From: Tyzzerella sp.
GTDB lineage: Bacteria > Bacillota > Clostridia > Lachnospirales > Lachnospiraceae
Length of the DNA: 64,000 bases
Reading direction: 5' to 3'
NCBI GenBank assembly: GCA_017416155.1
Contig: JAFQDE010000015.1
Location: forward strand, 86,004-150,003
Below the pieces are notes generated by a model, which was not told the DNA's origin, did not search any database, and saw only the letters and a list, made by a program, of their open reading frames with translations. This document shows, in pieces, positions 8,229-40,214 of this stretch (the stretch's first letter is position 1; every line of letters starts with the position of its first letter). A program made the position numbers and the translations under genes.

Positions 8229-9317
8229 ATGAAACGAGTATTGACAACGGTGATGTGCTTTTTTTTGGCTGCGACGTTGCTCGCAGGTTGCAGAGCAAGA
8301 CAAAATAATACAGAAGCGGGGATGAAGATTGCGATTGTAAGTTCTCCTTCCGGAGTAGATGATGGGAGTTTCAACGAGAACATTTACAATGGCATTCTTT
8401 CATTTGTGAAAGAGAATCCGGAGGCAAGTGTCATCCCAATCAGAGAGGAAACTGGTAATGCATCTGCTGCAGTTCAAACTGTTGCTGATATTGTAGCTGA
8501 CTATGATGTCATTGTTTGCTGTGGATATCAGTTTACAGGCATCGGAGCCTTGGCGAGAGAAAACCCTAACGTAAAGTTTATCCTTGTAGACTCAAATCCA
8601 TCAGATGAGAGTGGGAAAGAGATTACAAATGGAGTGGACAATATCTATGCAATGACGTTTCGTGAGGAGGAGGCGGGTTTCCTTGCAGGTTTAACAGCGG
8701 CGTTGGAGACAAAAACAGGGAAGGTTGCTGTGGTAAATGGAATTGCATTTCCGTCAAATGTGAATTATCAACAGGGGTTTGAAACCGGCGTAAACTATGC
8801 GAATCATCAGTACAGCACGAAGACACAACTCATAGAATTGGCGTCGTATGCAGGAATAGACAGTGCGGGTAAAAACGTGGGTGGAAACTATATTGGTAAC
8901 TTTTCGGATGAGGCAACCGGGAAAGTAGTAGGAAAGGCACTGATTGACAAAGGTGTGGACATTCTATTTGTGGCAGCCGGTGCTTCGGGCAATGGTGTAC
9001 TTACAGCGGCAAAGGAAGCAAAAAATGTGTTTTGCATCGGAAGTGATGTTGATCAGTATGATAATGGTGCAAATGGAAGCCAAAATGTGATGCTGACCTC
9101 TGTGTTGAAGGTGATGGACATGAATGTAAAGAAGCAGTTGGATGCAATCAAAGAGGGGAGTTTCCAAGGAGGAAATTATCTGCTTGGCGTAGAGACGGAT
9201 TCTGCAGGATTTGTAAGCGAAGAGAATAGACAGCAATTATCTGACAGCACAATTGCAAAGCTGAATGACGCATTGGAGCAAATGAAATCCGGTGATATTG
9301 TTCCGTCAGGGAGATGA
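8229..9317 (+). CDS. BMP/PnrA-family nucleoside-binding lipoprotein of an ABC transporter
   Basis: A 362-residue substrate-binding lipoprotein. The signal peptide (residues 1-20) ends in the lipobox LLAGC with lipidated Cys21. The mature part has the BMP fold signatures GSFNENIYNGI near residue 48, the VDSNPSDES stretch and FVAAGASGNGVL near 245. BMP/PnrA proteins bind purine nucleosides at the outer face of the membrane. The start is supported by AAAGGAGAAACG. It is followed after 3 nt by its ATPase and then two permeases, the complete NupNOPQ-like layout, just downstream of the nucleoside phosphorylase. Confidence 0.9.
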   Translation: MKRVLTTVMCFFLAATLLAGCRARQNNTEAGMKIAIVSSPSGVDDGSFNENIYNGILSFVKENPEASVIPIREETGNASAAVQTVADIVADYDVIVCCGYQFTGIGALARENPNVKFILVDSNPSDESGKEITNGVDNIYAMTFREEEAGFLAGLTAALETKTGKVAVVNGIAFPSNVNYQQGFETGVNYANHQYSTKTQLIELASYAGIDSAGKNVGGNYIGNFSDEATGKVVGKALIDKGVDILFVAAGASGNGVLTAAKEAKNVFCIGSDVDQYDNGANGSQNVMLTSVLKVMDMNVKKQLDAIKEGSFQGGNYLLGVETDSAGFVSEENRQQLSDSTIAKLNDALEQMKSGDIVPSGR

Positions 9318-9320
9318 AAT

Positions 9321-10853
9321 ATGTCAGAATATATTGTCGAGATGAGAAATATAACAAAACGTTTTCCGGGAATTGTTGCAAACGATGATGTGACCATTCA
9401 GATAAAAAAGGGAGAGGTCTATGCACTCCTCGGTGAAAATGGTGCAGGGAAATCCACGCTTATGAGTATGCTGTTTGGGATGTATGAACCTGATGTGGGA
9501 GAAATTTATGTGAGAGGAAATCGAGAAATCATTTCCTCTCCAAGTTATGCAACGAGTCTCTACATTGGAATGGTGCATCAGCATTTTAAATTAGTGTCTA
9601 ATTACACGATTGCAGAAAATATTATTATGGGAATAGAGCCGATGAAGCGATTTCTCGGTTTACTTCCATATGTAGATATTAAGTCGGCAAATGAAGAGAT
9701 AGCAAGGTTGTCCTCGGAGTACGGGTTAGAAGTAGATCCAACAAAGCGCATTTGTGATGTTCCCGTTTCTGTACAGCAGCGTGTCGAAATTTTAAAAATG
9801 CTCTATCGCGATGCGGACATCCTAATATTCGATGAGCCTACAGCAGTTCTGACACCGCAGGAAATTGAGTTTCTTCTCAAAATTATCGAAGGGTTAAAGA
9901 AGGCGGGGAAAACAGTGATTCTAATCACGCATAAGTTAGAAGAGATAAAAAAAGTGGCAGACCGCTGCGCAATTTTAAATAGAGGAAAAGTTATCGATGT
10001 GATGGATGTGAGAAACACCAGTACCGCAGAGATGGCGAGCAAGATGGTCGGACGGGAAATTTCATCAGAGAGAAAAAAAGCAGGTGCAAGGTATGGAGAG
10101 GAAGTTCTTGTTGTACAACATTTGACGGTGAAGGATGATAATGGATTCGATATTGTAAAAAATGTGTCATTATGTGTGCGACAGGGCGAGATTGTTGCAG
10201 TGGCAGGTGTTGCGGGAAACGGCCAAGTGGAGCTTGCAGATGCAATCGCAGGATTTAAGAAAGTATCATCTGGGAAAATTGTGTTAAATGGAAAGGAGAT
10301 TGCGAACAAAACGATACGAGGACGTATTCAGTCAGGAATTTCCTATATACCGGAGGATAGACAGAGTTATGGGCTTGTACTAGATTTTTCACTGGCTGAA
10401 AATCTAGTGTTGAAAAAATATAATCAAGAACCTTATGCAAGAAAAGGGATTCGCAATCAACAGGAAGTGGAACTGTTTTCTGAGCGTTTGCAAAAGAATT
10501 ACGATATTCGAAGTGCAAGGGGGAATCAGACAATCGTTCGTTCCATGAGTGGCGGTAATCAGCAGAAAGCGATTATCGCGCGTGAAGTGGAGCAGGATTC
10601 GTCCCTTATCATATTTGTGCAACCAACTCGTGGACTGGATGTTGGTGCCATTCACAACATCCATAATCAAATACTTGCGGAACGGGATAAGGGTAAGGCA
10701 ATTTTACTTGTTTCTTTGGAACTAGATGAAGTTATGGCACTTGCAGATACCATTGCTGTGATGTATAACGGACAGATTCTGACATGTGAAGATGCGACAT
10801 CCTTGTCAATAGATGAAGTGGGACAGTATATGATGGGGGTAGTAAATATATGA
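9321..10853 (+). CDS. ABC transporter ATPase, duplicated cassette (NupO/RbsA-like)
   Basis: A 510-residue protein with two fused ATP-binding cassettes. The N-terminal cassette has Walker A GENGAGKST near residue 37, signature VPVSVQQRVEILK and Walker B LIFDEPTAVLTPQE. The C-terminal cassette has a degenerate Walker A (GVAGNGQVEL) but a good signature RSMSGGNQQKAIIARE and the QPTRGLDVGA Walker B region. This asymmetry is typical of RbsA/NupO ATPases, in which only one site hydrolyses well. It energises uptake through the two permeases that follow, with ATGA overlap to the first. Confidence 0.92.
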   Translation: MSEYIVEMRNITKRFPGIVANDDVTIQIKKGEVYALLGENGAGKSTLMSMLFGMYEPDVGEIYVRGNREIISSPSYATSLYIGMVHQHFKLVSNYTIAENIIMGIEPMKRFLGLLPYVDIKSANEEIARLSSEYGLEVDPTKRICDVPVSVQQRVEILKMLYRDADILIFDEPTAVLTPQEIEFLLKIIEGLKKAGKTVILITHKLEEIKKVADRCAILNRGKVIDVMDVRNTSTAEMASKMVGREISSERKKAGARYGEEVLVVQHLTVKDDNGFDIVKNVSLCVRQGEIVAVAGVAGNGQVELADAIAGFKKVSSGKIVLNGKEIANKTIRGRIQSGISYIPEDRQSYGLVLDFSLAENLVLKKYNQEPYARKGIRNQQEVELFSERLQKNYDIRSARGNQTIVRSMSGGNQQKAIIAREVEQDSSLIIFVQPTRGLDVGAIHNIHNQILAERDKGKAILLVSLELDEVMALADTIAVMYNGQILTCEDATSLSIDEVGQYMMGVVNI

Positions 10854-38918: not shown

Positions 38919-38959
38919 TAGATTCGTCGCTGAGCGGATGCGACAACAATAGAATATAT

Positions 38960-39045
38960 GCAGAGGTATCGAAGTGGTCATAACGAGGCGGTCTTGAAAA
39001 CCGTTTGTCCGAGAGGGCGCGTGGGTTCGAATCCCACCCTCTGCG
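38960..39045 (+). tRNA. tRNA-Ser (anticodon TGA)
   Basis: An 86-nt class II tRNA: acceptor GCAGAGG/CCTCTGC with discriminator G, anticodon loop CTTGAAA in a CGGT/ACCG-type stem, long variable arm TTTGTCCGAGAGGGCGC and T arm GTGGGTTCGAATCCCAC. CCA is not encoded. Confidence 0.96.
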
Positions 39046-39049
39046 TTAG

Positions 39050-39090
39050 AAAGCCTGTAATTCCAAATGGAATTGCAGGCTTTTGATTTT
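39050..39090 (+). terminator. Terminator after tRNA-Ser(TGA)
   Basis: An approximately 15-bp stem with one U-G pair (39050-39064 with about 39068-39083), then TTTTGATTTTTT. Confidence 0.85.
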
Positions 39091-39132
39091 TTGATAGAGA
39101 TTAGGGTGCTGCGCCTCTTGGTATAGATATTT

Positions 39133-39376
39133 TACGGTGCATAGTGGGATTTGGCGATTTTGCACCGTAGAGGATTTTAGTGTGTTTATGAATTTACGGC
39201 GCATTTTAAAGAAATCAAATTTCACACCGTGAATTTCAGGTAAAAATCACATATTTTCGAATAGAAATGATTAGGTTTACGGTGAACATTGAGACTTTTG
39301 TATAAGGCACCGTAATCCCAAATATTTTTGTCTAATATATACGGTGTATATATTTAAAATGAGCATTTAAACCGTA
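39133..39376. repeat. Array of four 37-bp inverted-repeat units (TACGGTG-N23-CACCGTA)
   Basis: This fills most of the gene-free stretch 39046-39488. Units lie at 39133-39169, 39195-39231, 39278-39314 and 39340-39376. Each has TACGGTG on the left and CACCGTA on the right with exactly 23 nt between. Units 1 and 3 are perfect; unit 2 has one change per half-site (TACGGCG, CACCGTG); unit 4 has AACCGTA on the right. The 23-nt interiors show no similarity. Unit starts are 62, 83 and 62 bp apart, so half-sites alternate in orientation at intervals of 30, 32, 30, 53, 30, 32 and 30 bp, close to 3 or 5 helical turns. This points to a DNA-binding array rather than RNA hairpins. Confidence 0.85.
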
Positions 39377-39426
39377 AACATGCAAAAAGACTCTCGATCA
39401 TTGACTATAGCCTTATACGTAATTCG

Positions 39427-39455
39427 TTGAAAGATAATGAGTTTTATAGTACAAT
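39427..39455 (+). promoter_or_regulatory. Promoter of the orphan membrane-protein gene
   Basis: TTGAAA (39427-39432), a 17-nt spacer and TACAAT (39450-39455), 34 nt before the start codon and 50 nt beyond the last repeat half-site. Confidence 0.6.
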
Positions 39456-39488
39456 GATGAAAAGAAAATAGTTAGAGGTGAAAAGAAT

Positions 39489-40013
39489 ATGTTTGATTGG
39501 AAAAACAAAAAATCAAGATTTCACTTTTGGGGAATGGTAATCAGTTTGGCTATATTGTTAATCGTATTCTATGCTACAGATGGATGGACTGGAGATAAAG
39601 AATTTTCGGAATATACTCGCTATGATTGGTCGATTGCCATATTACCGCTGTCAATTATGGCTGTTTCAGGTATTTCTACTTTGGTTTTTTCTTTAATTAT
39701 AATAATTCCAATAATAAGAATATATCCAGCGTTAATGAATTATGTAATAAACAAGAAATTTTCTGATATAGATCCGGGAACAGAATTTTTTGTTTTTGAC
39801 CATAATGAATTAAAACGTGCTTGTTGTCGCACAGAAAAGCAAAACGGGATCTGGATTTCCATCAAAGAATATAGTTTAAAGACAAAAAGTTGGACAATTA
39901 TTGAAGAAGGTCGCCATATTGAAAAAAAGGATGACTTGATTTGTACATTACAAGAAGAATATAAGTATGATAAGGTGAAGTTTTACAGTAGGAAAAACTT
40001 CCATAGTAATTAA
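39489..40013 (+). CDS. Orphan two-TM membrane protein of unknown function
   Basis: A 174-residue protein with two membrane segments (about 12-29 and 51-75) and a C-terminal cytoplasmic domain (about 95-170) rich in aromatic and charged residues. The start has TTAGAGGTGAAAAG upstream. I recognise no family. Its codons are visibly more A/T-rich than those of neighbouring housekeeping genes, and it sits between two tRNA-Ser genes directly after the 37-bp repeat array, so it may be acquired DNA. No partner gene is nearby on either strand. Confidence 0.6.
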   Translation: MFDWKNKKSRFHFWGMVISLAILLIVFYATDGWTGDKEFSEYTRYDWSIAILPLSIMAVSGISTLVFSLIIIIPIIRIYPALMNYVINKKFSDIDPGTEFFVFDHNELKRACCRTEKQNGIWISIKEYSLKTKSWTIIEEGRHIEKKDDLICTLQEEYKYDKVKFYSRKNFHSN

Positions 40014-40084
40014 TTATATGCTCTAATTGACTGCTCTTTTTTTGTTGCTTTATCACAAAGTTTGTGTTAAGGTGTAAGTGGTTT

Positions 40085-40173
40085 GGAGAAGTACCCAAGA
40101 GGCTGAAGGGGCTCCCCTGGAAAGGGAGTAGGTCGTTAATAGCGGTGCGCGGGTTCAAATCCCGCCTTCTCCG
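40085..40173 (+). tRNA. tRNA-Ser (anticodon GGA)
   Basis: An 89-nt class II tRNA: acceptor GGAGAAG/CTTCTCC, anticodon arm CTCCC-CTGGAAA-GGGAG giving GGA, a long variable arm and T arm GCGGGTTCAAATCCCGC. A T run at 40175-40181 directly after it may end the transcript. Confidence 0.96.
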
Positions 40174-40214
40174 CTTTTTTTATGCAAAAACGCGAGTGCG
40201 AGGTTGAAATCTTT

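Follow-up and report, generated by a model that had tools for sequence, protein, structure and literature searches.

Two predicted tRNA-Ser genes in a 64,000-nt stretch of Tyzzerella sp. DNA (the window) enclose an array of four inverted half-site pairs, or dyads, and one orphan gene. The window comes from a 2.07-Mb draft genome that is 84% complete (G000). The features of the locus are as follows:

38959..39046, plus strand, tRNA-Ser (tga), tRNA prediction
39049..39084, plus strand, terminator-like hairpin between tRNA-Ser (tga) and the array, consensus match only
39085..40084, no strand assigned, segment with the array and the orphan gene, limits approximate, missing where the tRNA-Ser genes of congeners adjoin
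39133..39169, no strand assigned, dyad 1, TACGGTG-N23-CACCGTA without mismatch
39195..39231, no strand assigned, dyad 2, two mismatches, one per half-site
39278..39314, no strand assigned, dyad 3, no mismatch
39340..39376, no strand assigned, dyad 4, one mismatch, in the right half-site
39427..39455, plus strand, promoter-like sequence ahead of ORF 39489, identified by consensus match only (10 of 12 positions)
39489..40013, plus strand, ORF of 174 aa, an orphan and apparently a membrane protein
40085..40174, plus strand, tRNA-Ser (gga), tRNA prediction

The sequence-only reading of this DNA had described the array as four TACGGTG/CACCGTA pairs with unrelated interiors. The pairs are real, with a gap of 23 nt in all four, and shuffled versions of the window contained on average 0.04 and at most one N23 dyad as compared with the four found; only two of the four are perfect, however (mismatches 0, 2, 0 and 1). 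The steps of 62, 83 and 62 bp between unit starts (39133, 39195, 39278 and 39340) were read correctly, and the contrast between fixed spacing and free interiors extends to other loci, between which the spacing is retained while interior identity averages 8.29 of 23 positions. The region 39091-40084 has a G+C content of 31.5%, as against 41.7% across the window. ORF 39489 had no match among 60 other genomes searched. The orphan ORFs beside arrays matched no family above the cut-off in Pfam (five ORFs) or NCBIfam (four of these) and nothing in PADLOC (the five); ORF 39489 is among those searched in all three. An Rfam search at the window array returned the tRNAs, all other matches falling below the gathering score.

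The window array belongs to a dispersed, lineage-restricted family. Chance frequency of the motif was one outcome that the sequence-only reading had named as refuting it; an excess was found instead. With a reversed pattern as the control for genome scans, G000 contains 22 N23 dyads at up to two mismatches versus 4 for the control. At up to one mismatch the counts are 15 in G000, 61 in Tyzzerella sp. RGIG2081 (G008, a draft, 67% complete) and 3 in Tyzzerella sp. RGIG4687 (G009, a draft, 65% complete), as against zero or one control match in each of ten Tyzzerella genomes (one in G008). The seven other genomes of the genus (G001-G007) gave no N23 dyad at this threshold. Among 51 more distant relatives, 13 had a single dyad match and 15 a control match. 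An exact three-half-site pattern, scanned against the genome_contigs collection (84,980 species by its description), was found in 18 stretches, of which 15 belong to RGIG2081 and one each to RGIG4687, Lachnospiraceae RGIG7268 and a Bacteroidales record. The Bacteroidales stretch, from a genome in which a single dyad occurs when one mismatch is allowed, was taken for a chance match. Lachnospiraceae RGIG7268 (G394) represents another genus of the family, and its array (L056) consists of two dyads with a step of 73 bp adjoining asnS, the product of which shares 78.7% identity over 408 aa with its G000 counterpart. When 397 genomes of the family were drawn, with G008 and G009 lying outside the draw, the same exact pattern occurred in G000 and G394 only.

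Viral contigs contained neither the exact three-half-site pattern nor an exact extended single-dyad pattern, and plasmids and phages gave no match to window positions 39050-39480 in a distant blastn search. An unsupervised search of about 320 kb of G002, G003, G005 and G007 for other inverted arms at fixed steps returned no equivalent array. Two other repeats were seen in these relatives. In G005, direct repeats with GTCCCC arms recur every 38 bp (L121, about 8987-9404 of G005:C7), probably as a CRISPR array. Just downstream of rluD in G007 (L084), TAAGGTG and CACCTTA lie in inverted order round a hairpin with starts 77 bp apart; these arms resemble the array half-sites with one base changed, and their spacing is unlike that of the arrays. 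Gene names used here, other than those of family-search hits, were read from translations and not taken from annotation (rluD, potD, gltX, uvrD, dgt, relA, asnS and others). A search of the open-licence literature found no description of such arrays, which does not prove that none has been published.

The geometry of the family is strict and follows the DNA helix. In G008, 60 of the 61 dyads were read; they occupy 18 intergenic places with one to six dyads each. Spacing and covariation were counted on dyads with up to two mismatches from 24 sources, with L018, L019, L024 and L044 omitted. The 59 steps between neighbouring dyads fall into narrow classes, 26 at 61-63 bp, 21 at 71-74 bp, six at 82-84 bp and one at 94 bp, followed by single longer steps of 114, 125, 146, 156 and 178 bp. 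Their coherence peaks at a period of 10.5 bp (0.944; 59 steps, 24 sources), the steps being not independent because units duplicate inside arrays. Within a dyad, the step between perfect half-sites is 30 bp in 46 cases, 31 bp in seven and 29 bp in one; seven perfect half-site pairs thus carry N24 in place of N23. An N24 spacing was noted in a dyad at position 1711 of L021 (G000:C35). The nearest outward half-site steps are mostly 31-33 bp (17) or 41-43 bp (23), and the half-site itself extends to approximately TTACGGTGYR. A second array in G000, L022 (C35:36052), has the geometry 62-83-62, exactly that of the window array.

Whether the dyads act in DNA or RNA can be judged from their variation. 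The variable partner positions 7/29, 8/28 and 6/30 show no covariation (z of 1.1, -0.1 and -1.3; 86 dyads), whereas a hairpin would preserve pairing. A or T occupies the dyad centre in 60 of 63 cases, versus a shuffle mean of 46.2 that none of 2000 shuffles raised to this value, and the power of the symmetric AT profile at 10.5 bp exceeds that of all 2000 shuffles, although the strongest periods of the profile are about 7 and 10 bp and not exactly 10.5. Both AT tests were made on the 63 dyads with at most one mismatch from G008 (60) and G009 (3) only. Together, the whole-turn steps, the lack of stem covariation and the A/T centre favour protein binding to duplex DNA, and we regard the dyads as very probably protein sites on the double helix. 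The earlier proposal of a protein bound on one DNA face gains support from the same three observations. That the dyads are RNA stem-loops in a transcript, or a CRISPR-like array whose interiors are captured spacers, appears highly improbable. A dyad could in principle give a stem of at least seven pairs with a 23-nt loop, but the variable stem positions change without compensation, the 86 dyads show no excess pairing, the dyad steps track the DNA helix and no Rfam family other than tRNA scores above gathering at the array. As for CRISPR, the arrays lack a long conserved direct repeat with uniform spacers; the shared parts are inverted half-sites of 7-10 bp, separated by unequal gaps that alternate between 23 nt and 25 nt or more. 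The initial judgement that the array is no CRISPR, T-box or terminator is upheld.

Comparison of orthologous places shows that arrays are gained as whole blocks. The two tRNA-Ser genes lie 1,038 bp apart in the window and 45-60 bp apart in G001, G005, G006, G007, G008 and G009, a comparison that omits G002 (tga present twice), G003 (a single tRNA found) and G004 (where the contig ends). Since the pair is compact in these six congeners, the window array was inserted into such a compact pair, with or beside the orphan gene. In G002, a second tRNA-Ser (tga) replaces tRNA-Ser (gga) beside ispD (L167, 2299-2568), a local tRNA duplication. Outside the half-sites, the window array and L022 are alike in register at 98 of 188 positions (52%), as compared with a mean identity of 35.7% in 574 in-register array comparisons; some two-dyad comparisons reach 52-56%, over 71-82 positions only, and none with such identity approaches the window-L022 pair in length. 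The shared geometry and this identity suggest that one of the two was probably copied from the other.

Four array places are common to G000 and G008: both sides of rluD, gltX|uvrD and dgt|tRNA-Leu. The potD|rluD spacer has no dyad in G003, G005 and G006, where it measures from 0 to about 28 bp; it contains one dyad (N24) in G000 and six in G008, and the G000 dyad agrees with the first G008 dyad at 14 of 14 half-site positions and 21 of 25 aligned interior columns. In the orthologous dyads at gltX|uvrD, the half-sites again agree at 14 of 14 positions, with interiors alike in 12 of 26 and 15 of 25 columns. At the 14 other G008 places, the same gene side in other genomes, where the gene was found, has no dyad in 12 of 12 cases in G000, 8 of 8 in G009, 9 of 9 in G007, 7 of 7 in G002 and 4 of 4 in G005. 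Isolated matches with four mismatches at those gene sides were taken for chance, and in G009 a single perfect half-site stands by itself after relA. The gene beyond the array place was compared only for relA, prfA and clpB; the one beyond relA looks the same in G000, G005, G007 and G009 and different in G002. Units have also duplicated within arrays (L061, L064, L066 and L069). Eight interior pairs match at 14 or more of 19 positions, versus about 1.2 in shuffles; two of the eight are neighbours in one array, and we ascribe the rest to the shared AT pattern or chance.

The arrays lie between genes of every orientation. By longest-ORF calls and tRNA predictions, we classified the 18 G008 places as 12 co-directional, four convergent and two divergent, one of the co-directional places, beside rluD, hinging on an 82-aa ORF; at ten of the 18, a stop codon is no more than 60 bp away. 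No common functional theme unites the flanking genes. As a raw count, tRNA genes adjoin arrays at five distinct places (the window, L045, L065, L069, and dgt|tRNA-Leu in G000 and G008). When array-flanking genes were mapped onto G005, the region of about 300-800 kb on G005:C7 held orthologues of 10 of the 18 mapped; among control genes the figure was 4 of 14 mapped, three of the four being neighbours. We do not find this clustering convincing and treat it as a lead only. Mobile-element genes were noted in some of the stretches. A region resembling a mobilisable element (L173, G000:C2:12000-29589) adjoins the L016 array and encodes a tyrosine recombinase and a phage-repressor-like HTH protein and, as judged by eye, a MobA-type relaxase and a 2189-aa RHS-like protein. 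Genes for PD-(D/E)XK nuclease family transposases (PF12784) lie 0.5-2 kb from arrays in L045 (1070-1948, G009) and L020 (4912-5856, G000).

We propose that the window array is a member of a family of putative protein-binding arrays whose role is most likely architectural, as a boundary, a roadblock or a chromosome-organising site, a reading that we hold at about even confidence. In the proposed model, the candidate protein would bind as one dimer per 37-bp dyad, with one subunit on each approximately TTACGGTGYR half-site. The half-sites of a dyad lie roughly three helical turns apart, and the AT-rich centre would be the point at which the DNA bends towards the protein. Because the dyad-to-dyad step amounts to whole turns (6, 7, 8 or 9), neighbouring dimers would be aligned on one face, and hence could cooperate. 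Arrays may grow by unit duplication, and whole blocks may be gained or copied in intergenic DNA, after which interiors and linkers would drift and half-sites and phase would be retained. The outcome would be a stable nucleoprotein block that separates transcription units. No binding protein was found, which we count against the architectural reading, together with the poor conservation of array places, the lack of arrays in most relatives, the interdependence of the 59 steps, the AT periods near 7 and 10 bp and the seven N24 dyads.

Placement bears on whether the arrays are instead operators of a transcription regulator for the adjoining genes. The sequence-only reading had expected the array to act on its downstream promoter (39427) and orphan membrane gene (39489); the promoter-like match does follow the array directly, and many arrays lie upstream of some gene. 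This expectation was not supported: four of the 18 G008 places are, in our reading, between convergent genes, and gene 39489 stands alone among the genomes searched. Placement in all orientations and flanking genes that share no function speak against a set of operators belonging to one regulon and against any special standing of 39489 as a target, and they lead us to prefer an architectural role over a next-gene operator, which seems unlikely. The strongest rival to the architectural role is a selfish interspersed repeat of MITE or REP type, in which the half-sites are recognised in trans by a transposase or recombinase, the phasing is required for assembly of a synaptic complex and the host gains nothing. 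We consider it a possible but less favoured explanation. It would account for the patchy presence inside one genus, the gain of arrays where relatives have none, the probable whole-array copy in G000 and the single array in another genus; the poor conservation of places fits it too. Against it, neither a shared body nor terminal repeats or a target duplication were recognised, the bodies at different loci are on average unrelated, with interiors near background, and the homology between the window array and L022 stops near the array without an obvious target duplication. In addition, the copies are not recent, and no transposase gene with arrays on both sides was seen by eye in the stretches read. 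REP/BIME elements and MITEs have conserved bodies or hairpins, whereas in the arrays only half-sites, centre and phase are retained, and the dyads show no covariation of a hairpin. What the arrays do share with these elements, on which a review exists (PMC10969869), is a dispersed, intergenic, lineage-specific distribution.

Centromere-like partition sites dispersed on the chromosome are quite unlikely. Inverted-repeat arrays in helical phase would suit them, and the consulted passages on the plasmid centromeres sopC, OB and pSM19035 parS describe arrays of short inverted repeats bound by dimers, with the repeats set in longer iterons at one locus or scattered (PMC5016525). Those centromeres serve plasmid partition systems, however, whereas the arrays occupy about 18 chromosomal places in G008 with no partition genes seen adjoining. 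No par operon was recognised by eye beside arrays in the stretches read, plasmid records gave no match, and the G005 map shows no convincing clustering.

Several other systems resemble the arrays in part, as far as the consulted passages describe them. The operators of Lrp/AsnC proteins such as BarR have regular sites at whole turns round an octamer, with BarR DNA wrapped round the protein, but BarR uses 15-bp semipalindromic sites about two turns apart in one operator, whereas the arrays, found at many chromosomal places, consist of inverted pairs of asymmetric half-sites set about three turns apart (PMC10201364). RemA of Bacillus is a Firmicute protein whose ring is able to wrap DNA across repeated AT-rich sites; it protects 7-bp regions every 10 bp with modest conservation, in contrast to the strict half-sites and fixed 30-bp pairs of the arrays (PMC8481266). 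The stoperators of cluster A mycobacteriophages are asymmetric repeated sites in short intergenic spaces, for which a roadblock has been proposed, but each is a single site of 13 bp that follows the direction of transcription in a phage genome (PMC9283540). The arrays are phased inverted pairs on bacterial chromosomes, between genes of all orientations, and had no match in the viral collections scanned. The combination of inverted asymmetric half-sites 30 bp apart with dispersed chromosomal arrays at whole-turn steps appears in none of these accounts, as far as the passages of PMC10201364, PMC8481266, PMC9283540 and PMC5016525 tell.

More tentatively, the arrays may represent a previously undescribed bacterial chromosomal boundary element, in which a dimeric protein specific to the clade would build phased filaments or wraps along intergenic arrays. 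The arrays would spread through duplication of units and copying of blocks and serve as evolvable insulator-like or looping sites. The sites display unusually clearly the requirements of their protein, namely the half-site, the 30-bp half-site step, the central A/T and the whole-turn unit steps. With about 60 copies in a single draft genome, open to comparison across species, the DNA partner is almost completely specified, and one could fish for the protein directly. If the arrays are selfish repeats, their conserved parts would be only binding sites and helical phase; if the protein is a chromosome-architecture factor, the family would illustrate the origin and spread of sequence-specific architectural sites among bacteria.
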